64,000 bases of DNA from Glaciecola nitratireducens FR1064 (lineage in GTDB: Bacteria; Pseudomonadota; Gammaproteobacteria; Enterobacterales; Alteromonadaceae): NCBI RefSeq assembly GCF_000226565.1, contig NC_016041.1, positions 3,658,001 to 3,722,000 on the forward strand, written 5' to 3'. Below, one piece after another: positions 21 through 17,014 of this stretch. Within the stretch, counting starts at the first letter, position 1; every line of letters begins with the position of its first letter. Under the pieces are notes generated by a model, which worked only from the letters and a program-made list of their open reading frames with translations, was not told the origin of the DNA and ran no database searches. The position numbers and the translations under genes are program-made.

Positions 21-34
21 TTGACCCACATCAA
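21..34 (+). promoter_or_regulatory. FNR/FixK box before cytochrome c gene 1
   Basis: The sequence is TTGACCCACATCAA, a near-perfect match to the FNR/FixK consensus TTGAT-N4-ATCAA. Its centre (27.5) lies about 40 bp before the start expected from a -10-like hexamer TATTTT at 56-61, the geometry of a class II activated promoter. The cytochrome start codon follows at 136. The match is seen directly; binding by the FixK-like protein of this window is inferred. Confidence 0.75.
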
Positions 35-135
35 GTCAAAAACCTTTTTATCGTTTATTTTATTCTAGGGTGGTTAATGCAGCGTTAAAAACAGCAATTG
101 TTCAGACGATGCACTCGATGAAAAAGGAAACAATA

Positions 136-615
136 ATGAGTAAGCGCGCTATATTGACGGGTCTATCGTGTATTTTTAGCTTGTTTGCGTGTGACCAAGG
201 TGTAAATTCCCCAAGGGGCTTTAGCTTACCTGAGGGTAAGCCTGACGCAGGTAAACTAGTATTTTTAAAGCATCAATGTGTTGCCTGTCATAGCATCCCC
301 GGACTAGAGGATAACGCCGTAGAGCGCGAACATTCACCTCCAATTTCACTGAGTTCGAATTCAGCGATAGTAAAAACCTACGCAGAATTGGTGACAAGCA
401 TTATTAATCCTTCTCACAGAATATCGAGAGGAGCGCAGTGGGCAACCTCTGATGAAAATAAAGATTCTGTTATGCTGAACTACAATGATGTGCTCACGGT
501 AACTGAATTGATAGATTTAGTTGCTTACATTCAACCTCATTATCAAGTCACGCCTTGGCCTTATACTGTTTATCCGGTCTATGAAATACACTCACCAGCG
601 CCTAAAACACCATAG
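136..615 (+). CDS. lipoprotein c-type cytochrome (paralogue 1)
   Basis: A 159-residue exported monohaem cytochrome c. The start at 136 is chosen because AAGGAAAC precedes it and a lipoprotein signal peptide follows at once (lipobox LFAC, Cys19); a longer frame from 70 lacks both. The haem motif CVACH is at residues 48-52, and a Met before NYNDV near the C-terminus could be the axial ligand. It is a close paralogue of the cytochrome at 16562, sharing SPRGFSLPEG and the SIINPSH and NYNDV blocks at the same positions. The 3' end overlaps the convergent RNase gene by 14 bp. It is likely a membrane-anchored periplasmic electron carrier, and the FNR-type box upstream suggests expression at low oxygen. 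The redox partner is unknown. Confidence 0.85.
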   Translation: MSKRAILTGLSCIFSLFACDQGVNSPRGFSLPEGKPDAGKLVFLKHQCVACHSIPGLEDNAVEREHSPPISLSSNSAIVKTYAELVTSIINPSHRISRGAQWATSDENKDSVMLNYNDVLTVTELIDLVAYIQPHYQVTPWPYTVYPVYEIHSPAPKTP

Positions 616-2005: not shown

Positions 2006-2394
2006 GAGTTTCCCTTATTCATTGTGCATAACGTAAGGCGCTATGAAGCTTTCAACTTCAAGGAACAGTCTGCCAACGGTAGCTAAAAGCATTGGTAAGT
2101 CGCTCAAATAATATAGCATTGGAAATAATAGTTTTTGATCCCCATCAATACGCTTAGCTAACATTTAAAGTAAATTGAAACTTGGCTGTTTAGCATGTAG
2201 CAAAGTTTGATGGGTAAAAAGCCTTGTTGTTTTATCCCGCTGCAGGGAGGACATTGAATGACATTCTTTGTATTGTTTTTGCCGCAGACTTTGCGCTATT
2301 TGTTGCCGCACTCTTTCTGTAATAGTCTACGCTTACGAATAAGCAACAAACTCTTTAAATATATTGCTGAGCTTTTAAACCTAAGGATTAATTG
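2006..2394. other. 389-bp divergent intergenic region
   Basis: This gap separates the RNase gene (minus) from cbpA (plus). It holds a perfect FNR/FixK box at 2135-2148 and a TATTAT -10 for the minus strand at 2113-2108. No small gene or RNA was recognised in the remainder. Confidence 0.6.
2135..2148 (-). promoter_or_regulatory. Perfect FNR/FixK box for the RNase gene
   Basis: TTGATCCCCATCAA matches the FNR/FixK consensus at all ten informative bases. On the minus strand a TATTAT hexamer lies at 2113-2108, giving an expected start near 2101 and a box centre at about -40.5, a textbook class II position. The box is about 250 bp from cbpA, so control of cbpA by it is less certain. Confidence 0.8.
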
Positions 2395-3339
2395 ATGAAA
2401 TTCAAAGACTACTACAAAATTTTGGATGTAGATGAAACTGCAGATTTGAAGGAAGTTAAAAAGGCGTATCGTAAACTCGCACTTAAATTTCATCCCGATA
2501 CGAGCACCGCTTCAGACGCAGAAGCAAAATTTAAGGAAGTGGCTGAAGCATACGAAGTATTAAAAGATGCAACAAAACGAGCTGAATATGATGATTTAAG
2601 ACGTTATGGCGCCAGCTCAGGCGACGGATTTAATGCACCGCCAGGTTGGCAGTCCTCAACAGGAAGCAATCAATATCGGCAACAGGGACACGGTGATTTT
2701 TCAGATTTTTTTAATTCGGTTTTTGGCGACAGAGCACGGAGCTCTGAACGCTCCCCGGACTATGGACCAGATTTATTTAAAGGCCAAGATCTAGAAATGG
2801 AGTTACCTGTTTTTTTAGAAGAAGCCGTTGCAGGCAAAAGCAAATCGATTGATTACCACGTTCCCGTTTATGTCAATAATCAGGTGAAGCAAGTCAAAAA
2901 ATCTCTTAACGTTAAAGTGCCTTTAGGTGTGACAGATGGCGAGCGTATCAGGCTCAAAGGCCAAGGTGCTCCTGGCAGTGAAAATAAGTTAAATGGTGAT
3001 TTGTATCTGATCATTCGTCTAGTTCCTCATCCTTTGTTTGATGTAGAGGGCATCAACTTAATACTTACGTTACCACTAACACCATGGGAGGCGGCACTTG
3101 GCACTAAACTTGAGATCCCAACTTTAAACAGCAAAGTTAAACTGAACATTCCAGCAAATAGTCGAGCAGGGCAAAAGTTGAGGGTTAAAGGCAAAGGACT
3201 GAAGAATAAAACGGGTCAGGGCGATTTACTTGTCGTTATAAAAATTGATATTCCCCCCTCAACCACCAGCGAAACAAAACGTTTGTGGGCTGAATTGGCT
3301 GAGACTGAAAAGTTTAATCCTCGATCGGACTGGAGTTAA
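2395..3339 (+). CDS. cbpA: DnaJ-class co-chaperone CbpA
   Basis: A 314-residue J-domain protein. The J domain covers residues 1-68 with HPD at 33-35, a Gly/Phe-rich linker follows (about 75-105), and two C-terminal substrate-binding domains follow without a Cys-rich zinc region, which separates CbpA from DnaJ. ATG at 2395 follows the ribosome site AAGGATT; a TTG directly before it is less likely. CbpA partners DnaK and also binds curved DNA in E. coli. The next gene encodes its dedicated inhibitor CbpM, 5 bp downstream, which confirms the assignment. Closeness to the FixLJ-FixK locus suggests a place in a low-oxygen or stress programme. Confidence 0.92.
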
Positions 3340-3344
3340 TAGAT

Positions 3345-3644
3345 ATGGCAGACGTTACCCTATATATCGACATTGAAGAATTGTGCGAAAATGAAAACAT
3401 TGACCAAGAAGTTATCGTTGAAGTTGTTGAATACGGTATTGCAGCGCCCCTGCGCGGTGAGACTTTTTCAGAATGGATTTTTGATTTAGAGAATGCGTAC
3501 TGGATTAAAAAAGCCGTTAAATTGAACCAGCAGTTGTTACTCGATTGGGTTGCTATCAGTATGGTTATCGATTTAATGAAGGAGAAAGAAACGCTATTGC
3601 AAGAAAATGACCAATTAAGAAGCAGGTTAAACAGGCTACTCTAA
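3345..3644 (+). CDS. cbpM: chaperone modulator CbpM
   Basis: A 99-residue protein with a MerR-like helix-turn-helix N-terminus and a C-terminal helix (MKEKETLLQENDQLRSRL), the layout of CbpM/YccV-type modulators that bind the CbpA J domain and block its co-chaperone and DNA-binding activity. It starts 5 bp after cbpA and is almost certainly co-transcribed with it. Primary sequence is poorly conserved in this family, so the call leans on length, context and the EYGIAAP and WI/F motifs. Confidence 0.85.
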   Translation: MADVTLYIDIEELCENENIDQEVIVEVVEYGIAAPLRGETFSEWIFDLENAYWIKKAVKLNQQLLLDWVAISMVIDLMKEKETLLQENDQLRSRLNRLL

Positions 3645-3824: not shown

Positions 3825-4553
3825 ATGATACATTTACGAAATAATTTATTAAATTCTTTTTCTATTGACGATCGAGTTCAATTGTTTCCTTACCTCAAAC
3901 TGGTGAATCTGCCCTTAGGCACTATCATTTATGAACCCTATCAGAAACGTGAATACGTTTACTTTCCTATTGATTGCATTATTTCTACGTTTTATGTGAC
4001 AGCTGACGGCGCTTCAGTCGAAATATCTATAGTGGGTAATGAAGGTATTTCAGATATTGCCTGCTTTATGGGGGGCGAAAGTACACTGAACTTAGCTGTG
4101 GTACAAAGTGAAGGATTTGCTTATCGACTATCGGCAGCTGAATTGCGCAAACGGTTTAATAATCACTCCGACATTCGCGGTCAACTTCTTAATTATACCC
4201 AATCTTTAATTGTACAAATATCACAAACTGCGGTTTGTAATCGTCATCACAGCATTCAGCAGCGACTATGTAGATGGTTACTGCTGTCATTAGACCGCAT
4301 ATCAAGCAATAATCTGACTATGACACATGAACTCATTGCCAGCATGTTGGGTGTAAGGCGTGAGGGTGTAACTGAAGCCGCGGGTAAATTACAAAAGCAA
4401 GGAGCAATAAGTTACGCACGCGGCCACATTAAGGTTTTGGACAGAGCTAAATTAGAGTTCCTTTCCTGTGAGTGTTATCAAGTGGTGAAAAACGAATCGG
4501 CTCGGATAGACAATAAAACGTCAACTCAGCAGCGGCGCGCTAGCGTTTGCTAG
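3825..4553 (+). CDS. Crp/Fnr-superfamily transcription regulator
   Basis: A 242-residue protein with an N-terminal cyclic-nucleotide-binding-like beta-roll (about residues 25-120, with VEISIVGNEGISDIACFMGG) and a C-terminal winged helix whose recognition region is ELIASMLGVRREGVTEAAGKL. It has no FNR-type N-terminal cysteine cluster and does not carry the ExxSR recognition signature of FNR/FixK, so its DNA target should differ from the TTGAY-N4-RTCAA boxes here. It sits alone after cbpAM, with its 3' end converging on the symporter gene. Ligand and regulon are unknown. Confidence 0.8.
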   Translation: MIHLRNNLLNSFSIDDRVQLFPYLKLVNLPLGTIIYEPYQKREYVYFPIDCIISTFYVTADGASVEISIVGNEGISDIACFMGGESTLNLAVVQSEGFAYRLSAAELRKRFNNHSDIRGQLLNYTQSLIVQISQTAVCNRHHSIQQRLCRWLLLSLDRISSNNLTMTHELIASMLGVRREGVTEAAGKLQKQGAISYARGHIKVLDRAKLEFLSCECYQVVKNESARIDNKTSTQQRRASVC

Positions 4554-4572: not shown

Positions 4573-5928
4573 TTACTCGAGCTTTTTCTCCAACAATGTG
4601 GTTGATTTTTCTGGCGTGCTGTGAAGATGTGTAAAGTAGTGTACGGTGGTGCAAGCGACAACATCCCCTAATACGTTCACGGATGTTCGCAACATATCTA
4701 AAATGCGATCTACGCCAAGAATCAATGCAATACCTGCAGCCGGAATACCCACACCTTCCAGCACCATACTCAGAATGATGATCCCAGCGCCAGGTGTTGC
4801 AGGAGAGCCAATTGAGGCGGCGACCGACATGGTAACGATAAAGAAATAGCTTGAAAGGCTTAAATCCACATTAAAAACTTGCGCTAAAAACACGGTCGCA
4901 ACGCCTTGATACAAGCCTGTTCCTGTCATATTGATAGTTGCTCCTAAAGGAACCAGAAAGCGCGCAATTTCAGGATTGACCATCAACTTGTCTTCCACCA
5001 CCTGCAAAGTAATCGGCATAACCGCAGCAGAACTACTCGTAGAAAAAGACAGCAAAAGAAGCTCTCTAACATTCTTAAAAAACTGCCCCAAGGGCTGTGC
5101 TAGCGTCACTTTAGCAACCACAAAATAAAGTAATCCGACAAGCAGTAAGCCAAGCACAACCGTTGAAACATAAACCGCCATTCCTGCCAGAACATCAATA
5201 CCAAGATTGGCAACCAATCGAGTAATCAGCCCAAAAACAGCAATAGGAGCGAGCAACATAGCCCAAGATACAATGCGCAGGCTAACTTCTTGTAAAGCGC
5301 CCATCAAATCAAATAAGGGTTTAGATTGCTGTGCAGGAATAGCCAACATTGCCACGCCTAAAACAGCAGCAAACAAAATGACCTGCAGCATTTCACCTGA
5401 TGCCATCGATGCCAACGGGTTTTTGGGGATGAGCTCTGACACCTTGTTTGGTAATTCTGACATGGCTGGAAAACCCTGTGCGCCCGCGCCAGCAACCGTG
5501 ATTGAGTTTGCATCAATCAAGGCACTGGCATCTACAAATTGACCCGGTTGAATATTGAGTGCCAAACCAATACCAATTGTTGCTGCTACAGCGGTGGATA
5601 CAACAATAAATGCAAGTGCAATTAAGCCATTCTTTTTGATTGCATCTGGGTTATTGTTAGCCGCCAATCCTCTTACAATCGACGCAACCACAAGCGGAAC
5701 AACAATCATTTGAATGATAGCCAAAAAAACCTGCCCTGGTAACGCGAGCCAAGCGGTTATTGTCTTAACCGTGTCTGCTGATATAAGTCCTAAATCCGGA
5801 CCTAACAGCACACCCGCAATCACCCCAAGCATTAATGCAATTAATACTTTTAACCAAAGACGAGTGCTAATAAGGCGATCAAACTGATCGGCAAGACTTT
5901 TAAGATGATCTCGAAACAATCTACTCAT
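4573..5928 (-). CDS. dicarboxylate/amino acid:cation symporter (DAACS family)
   Basis: A 451-residue, multi-spanning inner-membrane transporter of the glutamate/C4-dicarboxylate symporter family. The serine-rich signature SFSTSSSAAVMPITL lies near residues 294-308 and the substrate/sodium motif INMTGTGLYQG follows, as in GltP/DctA proteins. The substrate is probably a C4-dicarboxylate, glutamate or aspartate; sequence alone does not decide. Its ATG overlaps the stop of the universal stress protein gene by 4 bp, so the two form an operon whose promoter carries an FNR/FixK box (6481-6494). Confidence 0.85.
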   Translation of the reverse strand: MSRLFRDHLKSLADQFDRLISTRLWLKVLIALMLGVIAGVLLGPDLGLISADTVKTITAWLALPGQVFLAIIQMIVVPLVVASIVRGLAANNNPDAIKKNGLIALAFIVVSTAVAATIGIGLALNIQPGQFVDASALIDANSITVAGAGAQGFPAMSELPNKVSELIPKNPLASMASGEMLQVILFAAVLGVAMLAIPAQQSKPLFDLMGALQEVSLRIVSWAMLLAPIAVFGLITRLVANLGIDVLAGMAVYVSTVVLGLLLVGLLYFVVAKVTLAQPLGQFFKNVRELLLLSFSTSSSAAVMPITLQVVEDKLMVNPEIARFLVPLGATINMTGTGLYQGVATVFLAQVFNVDLSLSSYFFIVTMSVAASIGSPATPGAGIIILSMVLEGVGIPAAGIALILGVDRILDMLRTSVNVLGDVVACTTVHYFTHLHSTPEKSTTLLEKKLE

Positions 5929-6404
5929 TCTATATCATCCTTTTTACACAGCGCTTTTGACAGCGTTGAACCTGAGGCGTGGTCACTTCTCACGGCTAAA
6001 ACATCTTGCTTTGCGCAATGCAGCAAGGTGTTTGTTGCTGAAGATAGCAACACCTTATATTCACTGCTTGCATGCGTGCCGATCACGATAAGATTAGCCT
6101 TAATATTGTTTGCGGTTTGGCATATTTCACCTGCTATATCGCCAATAGGTGTATGAATGTTGTTTTGTGGTATGCGGAATTTGTCTGCTATTTGGGTCAA
6201 ACGACGTCTAGCTTGCAGGGCAATATCGTTTATATAGTCAACGCCAAACGAACTTATATAGGGTTGAAAATAAGAAGTTGGTAGTGTCACAAAAATCAGA
6301 TGTAGTTTACTCGGTTCATCGGCAACACATAGCGCACTCTGCAGTACTTCATCGAACTCAGCATAAACATCGACTGCGGCAATGATGCATTTATATGCTT
6401 TCAT
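5925..6404 (-). CDS. universal stress protein, UspA-like
   Basis: A 159-residue cytoplasmic USP-domain protein. ATG at 6404 (MKAYKCIIAAVDVYAE) is preferred over an upstream in-frame codon because the family begins with this first beta strand and GAGG lies just before it. The C-terminal IVIGTHASSEYK to LLHCAKQDVLAVR segment matches the family, but the full G-x2-G-x9-G-S/T ATP loop is not intact, placing it nearer the non-ATP-binding UspA group. It is translationally coupled to the symporter gene. The FNR/FixK box upstream fits the many USP genes that belong to anaerobic regulons. Confidence 0.85.
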   Translation of the reverse strand: MKAYKCIIAAVDVYAEFDEVLQSALCVADEPSKLHLIFVTLPTSYFQPYISSFGVDYINDIALQARRRLTQIADKFRIPQNNIHTPIGDIAGEICQTANNIKANLIVIGTHASSEYKVLLSSATNTLLHCAKQDVLAVRSDHASGSTLSKALCKKDDIE

Positions 6405-6480: not shown

Positions 6481-6494
6481 TTGACTAACGTCAA
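6481..6494 (-). promoter_or_regulatory. FNR/FixK box for the usp-symporter operon
   Basis: TTGACTAACGTCAA is a symmetric TTGAC-N4-GTCAA site. On the minus strand TATCAT lies at 6458-6453, which gives a start near 6446 and puts the box centre at about -41.5. The half-site uses C rather than T at position 5, an accepted variant for FNR/FixK-type sites. Confidence 0.7.
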
Positions 6495-6576: not shown

Positions 6577-7317
6577 TTAAGAATCTAAGCTAGTTGTCGA
6601 AGATGAATAAGATGAGTCTTTTGAAAGAATTTGATTTAAAACTCGAGTGTCTAGGATTATTAGATGACGATTGCTCACCGAAATTACTCGCTTAAGCTGA
6701 AAGCTAGCAAGCACCCGACAAACAGTTTCTAACGCCATTCCCAAGTAATTAGCGATATCGGTGCGAGTCATACTCAATCTAAATTCTTTCCCGGATAAGC
6801 CTTGACTGGTAAAATTGTTTGCAAGTTCCAAAATAAAATGAGCCACCTTCTGTTCGCTAGAGCAAGAACTCAAACACATCATCATCATTGAGTCACATAA
6901 TAAAGTGTGACTCATTGATTTAAATAAACAGGTTCGAAAATCATCGCTACTTTTAACCAAGTTATAAACCTCAGACTCTTTTATAAAGCAGACGCTACTG
7001 GTTTCTAGAAAAACGATATTTTGGTTATGTACGTGCTCGTCAAATCCATCGACGCCAAGCAGATCACCCGGAAAGAAAAATCTCGTAATACATTCATCTC
7101 CACAGGCAGAAGTAATAAATGCCTTCGCTGAACCCGAGCGCATAATATATATGCCTTGAAATGACTCCCCCGCTGACAATAAAGCTTGTCTTGTATGAAA
7201 CACTCTGTGCGAATTGCCAAGCATGAAATTGTTTGATTTAGCAGCACTTTCTAAGCATACTTTAGACCAAGGGCTGGCGTTACTTGCCGGGTTAAAATCT
7301 AATGATGTCATTTTCAT
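6577..7317 (-). CDS. fixK: FixK/FNR-type transcription activator without an Fe-S motif
   Basis: A 246-residue Crp/Fnr protein. The beta-roll spans about residues 35-140, followed by a dimer helix and a winged helix containing TRTDIANYLGMALETVCRVLASF. The recognition residues E-T-V-C-R align with E-x-x-S-R of FNR, which reads TTGA half-sites. Only one cysteine (Cys21) occurs in the N-terminal region, so the FNR [4Fe-4S] ligand set is absent, as in rhizobial FixK. GGAGG lies about 10 bp before the ATG. The gene is divergent from the FixL-like kinase with a 181-bp gap. This supports an FixL to FixJ to FixK cascade acting on the boxes in this window. Assignment as FixK rather than another Fe-S-free FNR relative is inference from context. 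Confidence 0.75.
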   Translation of the reverse strand: MKMTSLDFNPASNASPWSKVCLESAAKSNNFMLGNSHRVFHTRQALLSAGESFQGIYIMRSGSAKAFITSACGDECITRFFFPGDLLGVDGFDEHVHNQNIVFLETSSVCFIKESEVYNLVKSSDDFRTCLFKSMSHTLLCDSMMMMCLSSCSSEQKVAHFILELANNFTSQGLSGKEFRLSMTRTDIANYLGMALETVCRVLASFQLKRVISVSNRHLIILDTRVLNQILSKDSSYSSSTTSLDS

Positions 7318-7498
7318 CTGCTTTTGGCCTCCAGGTTAATTGTATTAAGTTGACGGCAGGTAAGAGTTTAAAGCTCGAGCAGTCAAAAATATTGGTACGG
7401 AATAAAGAGTAGCGGCAAATGGGAAGGGTCGCTATCCGAATGACTACCTAAATGATTGCGGAAAATACCTAGTTAAATCAAAAATAAGGATGTTGAAA
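7318..7498. promoter_or_regulatory. fixK-fixL divergent promoter region with paired TACCTA motifs
   Basis: This region has two TACCTA copies at 7445-7450 and 7466-7471, 21 bp apart (two helical turns). On the minus strand they read TTAGGTAG and CTAGGTAT, partly resembling the GTAMGTAG site I recall for Sinorhizobium FixJ. No good FNR/FixK box is visible. A role as FixJ sites controlling fixK and/or fixL is speculative. Confidence 0.35.
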
Positions 7499-8701
7499 AT
7501 GAGCCAAGCCGATCAGCTTACCTTAGCGCAGGTTCTCTCAAGTGAAGATAGCAGCGCGCAGAATATAAAGGATGCAAGCGCACGTTTACTTGCCATTCTT
7601 GACGCAAGCCCAGACGCGTTCATCATCATCGATCAAGATGGCAAAATTGAGCTGGTGAATGCAACGGTTGAAAGCATGTTTCTATATAGTAAAGAAGAAT
7701 TATTAGGCCATAATGTGAATATGCTCATACCCGATTCAGTCAAACATGCGCATAACACTTATCTATCATCTTATAAGGAATCTGGTAATTCGAATATAAT
7801 CGGCACGGGTCGAAAGCTTCGAGCGAAAAAATCAGATGGTAAAGAATTCCCCATTTACCTTAGCGTCGGTGAGATAAAACACGCAAGTCATGCTCAATTT
7901 GTTGGAATAATTCGAGATATTTCTTCAGAAGAGCAGTACCAAACGACTTTGATAGACAATCAACAGAAGTTGACGCAAGCAGCAAGGTTAAGTTCGATGG
8001 GAGAGTTAGCCGCGAGTATTGCTCACGAAATAAACCAACCATTAACCGCTATATCAAACTACGCTCAGGCCGCTAAGCGTTTGCTAAGCTCAAACGACAC
8101 TGACAAAACAAAAATGATACATCAAGCACTTGATGGAATCGAAAGCCAAGCTCAACGTGCAAATGAGTTTATTGCGGGACTAAAGGCTCTGGCTAACAAA
8201 CATGCGTCGCACCGAGAAAGAGTGGCTCTTTTGCCGCTAATGCAAGAAAGCGTGAAGCTAGCGCAGCTAGATGCGCGTGTGCTAAATCATGAAATTATCC
8301 TGGATTTAGAAGAAGGTCAGGGCATTGAGGTTTTCGCCGATCCCATCCAAATACAGCAAGTCCTTCTCAATTTAATTCGAAATGCCTTGGACGCAATTGA
8401 ACAAGTCAAAGGCAGCCCATTACTCATTAGAACCACACGATTACCTAACAGTGATATTGAGATATCGGTTGCTGATTGTGGTACGGGCATCGAAAAGCAA
8501 ACGGCAGAGCGGATTTTCACACCCTTTTTTACGACCAAAACGAGCGGTATGGGCATTGGGCTAGCAGTTTGCAAAACAATTATTAACGCTCACGGTGGCT
8601 GCATATATTTTGCTGAGAACGTTCCAAAGGGCTGTATTTTTTCATTTAGCTTACCCCTGTTTAACAAAAACCAACGGCAAATTGAGAAAACTCATGGATA
8701 A
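7499..8701 (+). CDS. fixL: FixL-like haem-PAS oxygen-sensor histidine kinase
   Basis: A 400-residue soluble kinase: PAS domain (about 27-145), HisKA (His176 in SIAHEINQPL) and HATPase_c with an N-box (NLIRNALDAI), GTGIE and GMGIGLAV. The PAS part follows FixL closely: KHAHNTYLSSY places a histidine (about His85) at the haem-ligand position, and IIGTGRKLRAKKSDG keeps the distal arginine (about Arg105) that contacts bound oxygen in FixL. No membrane segment is visible. ATG at 7499 is chosen because AAGGA lies 8 bp before it; an ATG at 7490 overlaps that site. The stop overlaps fixJ by 8 bp. Haem binding is inferred from the motif. Confidence 0.85.
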   Translation: MSQADQLTLAQVLSSEDSSAQNIKDASARLLAILDASPDAFIIIDQDGKIELVNATVESMFLYSKEELLGHNVNMLIPDSVKHAHNTYLSSYKESGNSNIIGTGRKLRAKKSDGKEFPIYLSVGEIKHASHAQFVGIIRDISSEEQYQTTLIDNQQKLTQAARLSSMGELAASIAHEINQPLTAISNYAQAAKRLLSSNDTDKTKMIHQALDGIESQAQRANEFIAGLKALANKHASHRERVALLPLMQESVKLAQLDARVLNHEIILDLEEGQGIEVFADPIQIQQVLLNLIRNALDAIEQVKGSPLLIRTTRLPNSDIEISVADCGTGIEKQTAERIFTPFFTTKTSGMGIGLAVCKTIINAHGGCIYFAENVPKGCIFSFSLPLFNKNQRQIEKTHG

Positions 8702-9350
8702 ACGTGAATCAGAAAAGTTGCTGTCCGAAGCTATTGTTCACGTTGTGGACGATGATAAGGCGGTGTTGGATTCTATTAGTTTACTACTAACGAGTATTGG
8801 CATCTATCATCACACTTACAGCTCTGCGCAGGCCTTTCTTGATGCCTACGCTAAAGCTGAGTTCGATCACTACAAGGGCTGTATTTTAATGGATGTTCGA
8901 ATGCCTCTTATGAGCGGTATAGAATGCCAAGACAAACTAAAAGAAATAAATTGCGAACTTCCTGTGATATTTATAACGGCTTATGGCGATGTTCCCACAG
9001 CGGTAGAGACAATGAAAAATGGTGCCGTGGACTTTATTGAAAAACCCTACCGAGAGCAAGTGCTCATAGATGCTATCCAAAAAGCCTTATTAACGAGTAT
9101 AAATAGACAGTTAAAGGCTAAAAAAATATCTGATACCAAGCGCAAATTAGCAACGTTAAGCGCTCGCGAAACCCAAGTACTCCAAAAAATTCTAAATGGC
9201 AAAGCCAATAAAGTAATAGCACTAGAGCTTGGACTCAGTCAAAGAACAATCGAATTACATAGAGCACATGTAATGGAAAAAATGGACGTCAAATCGCTTG
9301 CTGAATTGATTAAAATAACACTGGATGCGATTGAATTAATTGATTCATAA
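8694..9350 (+). CDS. fixJ: FixJ-family response regulator
   Basis: A 218-residue response regulator. The receiver domain has VDDD, the phospho-acceptor Asp in LMDVRMPLMSG, TAYGD and EKPY, so all active-site residues are present. The C-terminal LuxR-type helix-turn-helix has SARETQVLQKILNGKANK and QRTIELHRAHVMEKM, the last block typical of FixJ/NodW. The start at 8694 overlaps the kinase stop, showing translational coupling. The expected role is phosphorylation by the upstream oxygen-sensing kinase and activation of the divergent fixK gene. That target is an inference from rhizobial systems. Confidence 0.85.
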   Translation: MDKRESEKLLSEAIVHVVDDDKAVLDSISLLLTSIGIYHHTYSSAQAFLDAYAKAEFDHYKGCILMDVRMPLMSGIECQDKLKEINCELPVIFITAYGDVPTAVETMKNGAVDFIEKPYREQVLIDAIQKALLTSINRQLKAKKISDTKRKLATLSARETQVLQKILNGKANKVIALELGLSQRTIELHRAHVMEKMDVKSLAELIKITLDAIELIDS

Positions 9351-16458: not shown

Positions 16459-16472
16459 TTGATCTGTATCAA
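16459..16472 (+). promoter_or_regulatory. Perfect FNR/FixK box before cytochrome c gene 2
   Basis: TTGATCTGTATCAA matches the consensus at every informative base. A -10-like TATCTT is at 16494-16499, giving a start near 16506 and a box centre at -40.5. The cytochrome ATG follows at 16562. Confidence 0.85.
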
Positions 16473-16561: not shown

Positions 16562-17014
16562 ATGAAAAAATATTCTGTTTTACTGATGGCAGTTGGTGCT
16601 TTATCTCTCACGGCTTGTGATACAGGGCCAGATTCACCTCGGGGTTTTAGTTTACCTGAGGGCAATGCAGACAAAGGGCAACTGGTTTTACTAAAACACC
16701 AGTGCTTAGCATGCCATTCAGTGGAGGGGGTGATTGATGAATCAATAGAACCGGAGCTGGAACTGAGAGTGCAACTAGGCGGCGAAGCCACTAAAGTAAC
16801 GACTTATGCCGCACTGGTAACAAGTATCATAAACCCATCGCATAAGATTGCAAAAGGCTACATGCTTGATTCAGTTAGCGAAGATGGTGTATCCAAAATG
16901 CGTAATTATAACGACGTGATGACCGTTACTGAGCTGGTAGATTTAGTGACTTACTTGCAACCTCTTTACAAAGTAAAACCTTACGAATACACACCGTATG
17001 GTCGTTATTATTGA
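16562..17014 (+). CDS. lipoprotein c-type cytochrome (paralogue 2)
   Basis: A 150-residue paralogue of the cytochrome at 136-615. The lipobox LTAC puts the acylated cysteine at residue 19 and the haem motif CLACH is at 48-52, exactly as in paralogue 1; SPRGFSLPEG, SIINPSHKIA and RNYNDVMTVTEL are also shared. A Met in SKMRNYNDV is the likely sixth ligand. AAGGAAGAAC precedes the start. The 3' end stops 1 bp from the convergent ABC-transporter gene. Similar cytochromes occur beside nitrous-oxide or terminal-oxidase genes in other marine bacteria, but none of those enzymes is in this window. Confidence 0.87.
   Translation: MKKYSVLLMAVGALSLTACDTGPDSPRGFSLPEGNADKGQLVLLKHQCLACHSVEGVIDESIEPELELRVQLGGEATKVTTYAALVTSIINPSHKIAKGYMLDSVSEDGVSKMRNYNDVMTVTELVDLVTYLQPLYKVKPYEYTPYGRYY

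Follow-up and report, generated by a model that had tools for sequence, protein, structure and literature searches.

One proposal is that FixK and FixKf, the regulators of the closest described systems, are FNR-type proteins no longer able to form a cluster (PMC4999443). For FixKf, which stands under a FixL-type kinase in the Rhizobium hFixL–FxkR–FixKf cascade, the loss is proposed to have been independent of that in FixK (PMC4999443; PMC7888657), and in the Caulobacterales a conserved FixJ site is reported only at fixK (PMC4999443). Here we analyse a 64,000-nucleotide stretch of the genome of Glaciecola nitratireducens FR1064 (the window; positions 3658001–3722000 of a single 4.13-Mb contig; genome G000), in which a fixL–fixJ pair lies divergent from a gene for a CRP/FNR protein that we call FNR2. 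An initial annotation had read the locus as a FixL–FixJ–FixK cascade; sequence and a conserved box support the cascade, and the supposed FixK turns out to be an FNR paralogue. We consider it likely that the locus is a FixLJ oxygen relay in which this paralogue takes the part of FixK and acts on FNR-type sites.

A FixL-type kinase with an adjoining FixJ

The fixL gene (7490..8701, plus strand) encodes a 403-amino-acid sensor kinase with a PAS domain of the haem-PAS type (His88 and Arg108), a HisKA domain with its phospho-accepting histidine (His179) and a HATPase_c domain (Pfam). As the initial annotation had stated, the adjoining fixJ (8694..9350, plus strand) overlaps it by 8 bp, from the fixJ ATG at 8694 to the fixL end at 8701; the 218-amino-acid product joins a Response_reg receiver (Asp67) to a GerE/LuxR DNA-binding domain. 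FNR2 (P0003; 6577..7317, minus strand), divergent from fixL, encodes 246 amino acids with cNMP_binding and HTH_Crp_2 domains. The same grouping of fixL, fixJ and a divergent FNR gene was found at 13 further loci of the family, at one of which fixL is broken, and the arrangement is therefore more than chance. FixL orthologues (E ≤ 1e-80) occur in 20 of 395 family genomes and FNR2 (E ≤ 1e-45) in 24, including all 20 with a FixL orthologue; the FNR2 genomes lacking one are G002, G005 (which has a FixL of a second type), G307 (in which fixL is in three pieces) and G339. A class-level sample of 369 genomes gave 6 matches at 1e-60, the window's genome counted.

Searched in isolation, the PAS stretch finds FixL haem-PAS chains as its best PDB matches (E = 2.1e-26), followed by DosP-type haem PAS domains (about 1e-13). 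In the PAS alignment, His88 occupies the proximal haem-ligand position (BjFixL H200) and Arg108 the distal position (BjFixL R220); the PDB chains include the R206A and R220A mutants of BjFixL. These are the residues that the initial annotation had placed at about 85 and 105, counting from an ATG three codons on. Several features weigh against reading the pair as FixL and FixJ: the best NCBIfam model of the kinase is FixL with 322 bits, short of the cut-off of 850; that of the regulator is FixJ with 224.6 bits, short of 255; and the positions of the BjFixL haem contacts Arg206 and His214 are Ser and Asn. The kinase score and both substitutions, together with the DosP-type match, would suit a FixL look-alike whose signal is some other gas or ligand (nitric oxide, carbon monoxide or redox state), or one that carries no haem. 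We hold such a look-alike to be improbable, given that the proximal His and distal Arg are kept in 20 of 20 family orthologues, that no other solved structure matches nearly as well as FixL haem-PAS and that fixJ adjoins the gene. We infer that the PAS domain of this FixL would bind haem, that the kinase would respond to oxygen and that FixJ would bind the box described below.

Support at the deep forks of the FixL tree is weak (58/17), and the fixLJ pair may have come by horizontal gain from Alphaproteobacteria or by vertical descent. The same genome has a second FixLJ pair (L195 and L193; G000:C1:3825689-3833333), in which fixJ2 is 47% identical to fixJ and is followed, by our reading, by phaC, a phosphotransacetylase-like gene, ackA, a GNAT gene and fixL2; FixL2 keeps the His and the Arg and, at 536 amino acids, is shorter than its relatives of about 800. 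Translations at L020, from the metagenome-assembled genome SZUA-309, show a distant gammaproteobacterial fixLJ near NfeD/stomatin and usp genes and a cbb3-like oxidase cluster.

A conserved box upstream of FNR2

Between fixL and FNR2 lies a predicted FixJ box, TAGGTATTTTCCGCAATCATTTAGG (7447..7471, minus strand), which reads towards FNR2. Its motif is common to 12 fixL–FNR2 intergenic regions (those of G092 and G307 were left out), from which a 25-bp pattern and a score matrix were built. When the window's own genome was searched with at most three mismatches, the window box matched with none and 10 other matches had three each, making the box the sole match with fewer than three; reversed-pattern controls gave 10 and 17 matches. 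A matrix score of at least 13.3 was found upstream of 27 of the 29 FNR2 genes, and of 15 of the 17 that lay outside the matrix, and the best of about 3,000 random 400-bp window stretches (one strand) scores −0.7. Across 44 genomes, our own included, the exact pattern occurs 24 times, 23 of them upstream of FNR2; it is present in 19 of 20 genomes with a FixL orthologue and in 0 of 24 others, and the reversed pattern gave 5 matches. The lowest box score in a FixL-orthologue genome is 19.6. Scores elsewhere are −8.1 in G307 (fixL broken), 6.1 in G339 and 13.3 in G002 (FixL orthologue not found in either) and 18.4 in G005 (second-type FixL only). The promoter of this CRP/FNR gene has a conserved box that is predicted to be a FixJ-like site, and the gene would be the only recognizable FixJ target in the genome.

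For comparison, PMC4999443 gives FixJ protection at fixK from −69 to −44 and from −57 to −31, the motifs GTAGTTTCCC and GTAMGTAG from systematic evolution of ligands by exponential enrichment, and the site TAAGTAATTTCCCTTA. The last was found before fixK in L057, and GTAGTTTCCC agrees with the boxes of L061 and L065 at 9 of 10 positions. A search for −10 elements, covering 16 of the 29 FNR2 promoters at offsets of 50–69 only and with ties going to 58, placed the best match 59–61 bp away from where the box starts in 13 of these promoters, which would put the box at about −72 to −44 relative to the predicted FNR2 start.

Several observations count against the box as a FixJ site that serves FNR2. 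The pattern and the matrix were made from the same sites that they score, and therefore only the absence of the box elsewhere is independent evidence; the G005 score is barely under the range of FixL genomes; and the window's own −10 element (TACTCT) is weak. The window box matches the S. meliloti site TAAGTAATTTCCCTTA in 11 of 16 positions, and at least 11 matches were reached in 375 of 2,000 shuffles of the intergenic region, so that this likeness is not significant alone, and the idea that the box can be recognized from the S. meliloti site alone was dropped. In G371 (L041, about 1362–1386), a box is kept between fixL and usp with FNR2 missing. These last two points, and the fact that no more than 18 bp part the window box from the start codon of fixL, would fit binding by a factor other than FixJ, or a box that serves fixL instead of FNR2. 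We consider either very improbable: the box precedes FNR2 with no fixL within the 1.5 kb read at L060, L071, L075, L077–L081 and L084–L087; its score drops, or the box disappears, in genomes whose fixL is broken or was not found; and 6 of the 7 fixL genes without an adjoining FNR2 (G371 being the seventh) have no box, with a best score of −6.6.

An FNR paralogue with a partly lost cluster site

Judged by sequence, FNR2 is an FNR paralogue and not a FixK orthologue. Its best NCBIfam model is Fnr, with 156 bits (cut-off 228), and the Caulobacter FixK model reaches 71 bits. We aligned 53 proteins, 29 of them FNR2, and built a tree with six alphaproteobacterial FixK/FnrL rows as the outgroup. The 29 FNR2 proteins form a single clade (100/99) on the FNR side, outside the FixK clade, and the six outgroup rows are split from the other 47 by a 100/99 branch, at which long branches meet. 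The bit scores and the tree position rule out P0003 as a FixK orthologue. The recognition-helix Glu and Arg of FNR are kept in FNR2.

The initial annotation had also described the divergent protein as lacking Fe–S (iron–sulfur) cysteines, which is partly correct: of the E. coli Fnr ligands, C20 and C23 have no counterpart in FNR2, whereas C29 (as Cys21) and C122 (as Cys110) are kept, so that two of four cluster ligands are lost. Across the clade, all four cluster cysteines are kept in 15 of the 29 FNR2 proteins and two to four are lost in 13 (Cys-lost hereafter), and G329b lacks only C29. At the 14 fixL-orthologue loci with FNR2 (one fixL being broken), 10 FNR2 proteins are Cys-lost and 4 intact. 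The regulator had been suggested to act in place of or beside FNR, and it stands beside it: the genome has an ordinary Fnr (L004) with CX2CX5C and a fourth Cys, 33% identical to FNR2 and flanked, as is Shewanella etrA, by UspE-like and TauE-like genes. A Cys-lost FNR2 occurs in 12 genomes. Six of them have a canonical Fnr; 4 have a second FNR2 with four cysteines (three genomes) or three (G329); and in 2 (G020 and G307) no other FNR was found at E 1e-30. With the genome's own Fnr gene as the query, blastn found no match in E. coli genomes.

The idea of many independent cysteine losses was dropped: the FNR2 tree needs 4 changes, the single-Cys loss of G329b included, but a single clade of the 13 Cys-lost rows is not rejected (approximately unbiased test, p = 0.135). 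The FixL tree has a clade of ten fixL genes (99/97), of which nine adjoin a Cys-lost FNR2 and the tenth (G371) has no FNR2 beside it. The simpler reading is therefore that the cysteines were lost once, in the fixL-linked FNR2 lineage; G002 and G005 may represent separate losses.

According to PMC4214427, Asp154 of FNR opposes dimerization until the cluster is in place, and the D154A protein is a permanent dimer. The window FNR2 keeps the Asp at this position, which is Ala in the four alphaproteobacterial FixKs compared; this makes dimerization and activity without a normal cluster a difficulty for the relay that we propose. It also rules out, for the window protein, the idea that Cys-less FNR2s are natural permanent dimers like D154A. 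Activity of FNR2 without the cluster is what the relay would nonetheless require, and we infer it.

The window FNR2 has cysteines at residues 130, 141, 148, 152 and 200, which are positions of the dimerization and recognition helices, and cysteines at such positions are commoner in Cys-lost than in intact FNR2 proteins. The count in the dimerization-helix region is 0 to 4 (median 2) in Cys-lost proteins and 0 or 1 in intact ones. FNR2 might still be a sensor, in which leftover ligands and new dimerization-helix cysteines form disulfides or become oxidized, so that it would read redox state in addition to its own amount. Of the 13 Cys-lost proteins, 9 keep C29 and 9 keep C122; Cys stands at E. 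coli positions 142, 153, 160 and 164 in 4, 7, 8 and 9 of these 13 and in 0, 0, 1 and 0 of 15 intact ones; and Cys200 of the window protein lies in the recognition helix, at the place of E. coli S212. There is a parallel in Bradyrhizobium FixK2, inactivated by oxidation of Cys183 near the DNA-binding domain (PMC9104804). However, the Cys-lost proteins belong mostly to one clade, so these counts are not independent; position 163 is Cys in 6 of 15 intact proteins and one Fnr has Cys at 153; 2 of the 13 have no Cys in the dimerization-helix region; and the S212 place is Cys in one intact protein too. A thiol-sensing FNR2 is on balance unlikely. We are somewhat more doubtful still that FNR2 is midway through a change of sensor, in which a FixJ-driven promoter would have made the Fe–S site dispensable, the loss would have followed in one lineage and the dimerization-helix cysteines would be a replacement thiol switch.

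FNR-type sites and neighbouring genes

The FNR consensus is TTGAY-N4-RTCAA. The genome has 66 such sites, compared with 23 for the reversed pattern; 55 of the 66 were examined, of which 21 lie inside a long reading frame. The window has five exact sites, of which four fall in a 17-kb interval that was picked after the clustering had been noticed (Poisson 1.8e-4). The sites would be shared by Fnr and FNR2 and cannot be divided between the two regulators. Genes behind sites elsewhere in the genome encode a COX1 oxidase subunit (ccoN-like by reading, and probably cbb3), OmpW, a universal stress protein (usp), Hsp20, a Clp ATPase, two CBS proteins, a cation efflux protein and a molybdopterin oxidoreductase. 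In the window they are a usp gene, cbpA and two small cytochrome c genes.

The usp gene (5928..6404, minus strand; Pfam Usp) has the FNR-type box TTGACTAACGTCAA upstream (6481..6494, plus strand). One cytochrome gene (70..615, plus strand; Pfam Cytochrom_C) is preceded by a box at 21..34 (plus strand); its paralogue, a small cytochrome-c-like lipoprotein with CxxCH that family models match only below cut-off (16562..17014, plus strand), is preceded by one at 16459..16472 (plus strand). A further box (2135..2148, plus strand) lies between a beta-CASP hydrolase gene and cbpA, the first of a cbpA–cbpM-like chaperone pair (2392..3644, plus strand; named from the best NCBIfam models, below cut-off) that is linked to FNR2 in L060 too. 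The small cytochrome c is found in 89 of 395 family genomes and in 20 of the 24 with FNR2 (the G307 copy being a fragment), and in 16 of those 20 it lies at most 15 kb from fixL or FNR2. Fisher values calculated alongside take no account of how closely the genomes are related.

Between cbpM and a symporter gene, positions 3825–4553 encode another CRP-family protein, with HTH_Crp_2 and without a cNMP_binding match, and an FNR-type box also precedes the window's NfeD gene (38055). Translations show a usp-like gene adjoining FNR2 in L027, L060 and L063 and adjoining fixL in L041. Locus L060 (G007) carries a second Cys-less FNR2, in the order cbpA–cbpM–usp–FNR2–cytochrome c, which resembles the window's genes; the stretch read there lacks fixLJ, yet its FixJ-like box scores 31.3.

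Proposed relay and comparison with known systems

In the relay that we propose, the haem-PAS FixL would phosphorylate FixJ at low oxygen, as its family suggests, and phosphorylated FixJ would bind one conserved box upstream of the predicted FNR2 start and turn on FNR2. Unable to form an ordinary four-cysteine cluster, FNR2 would act through its abundance. Its sites would be the TTGAY-N4-RTCAA sequences that the genome's four-cysteine Fnr also uses, and its targets would include oxidase subunit I, the small cytochromes c and stress proteins. Some kindred genomes keep a four-cysteine FNR2, and two sensors, FixL and the FNR2 cluster, would therefore read oxygen there; the window's lineage would have given up the reading by the cluster.

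Among the matches listed in open-licence literature, we found no study of such a cascade for FixL in Alteromonas, Alteromonadales or Gammaproteobacteria. What appears to be new is the conserved 25-bp predicted FixJ box before FNR2, in gene orientation. The change proposed for FixK and FixKf is visible here within one bacterial family, in one gene that has the same predicted FixJ box and a cluster site either complete or half gone. A hand-over of oxygen sensing from an Fe–S protein to a haem kinase would thereby become testable by swapping natural proteins, and the locus provides a response regulator that seems to have only one target.

The likeness to the FixLJ–FixK systems of Sinorhizobium, Bradyrhizobium and Caulobacter lies in a haem-PAS kinase with an adjoining FixJ, in a box at about −70 to −44 and in a CRP/FNR gene as the main or only target of FixJ, which is here a prediction; the protein in the part of FixK is an FNR paralogue that lies outside the FixK group of Alphaproteobacteria and still has Asp154 and two cluster cysteines. 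A receiver-only gene follows fixJ in 11 of 20 loci (L037–L041, L043–L046, L048 and L050), where it is short and recalls Caulobacter FixT (PMC7078487); none adjoins fixJ in the window. FNR2 resembles FNR and EtrA in standing on the FNR side with Fnr as its best NCBIfam model, and differs from them in lacking two of the four cluster ligands in the window and in its predicted transcription under FixJ. With FixKf it would share cluster loss in a CRP/FNR regulator under a FixL-type kinase. FixKf, however, is driven by FxkR and not by FixJ and is close to alphaproteobacterial FnrN, and the Cys-keeping and Cys-less proteins there stand on separate branches, whereas FNR2 has both in one clade, behind the same box.

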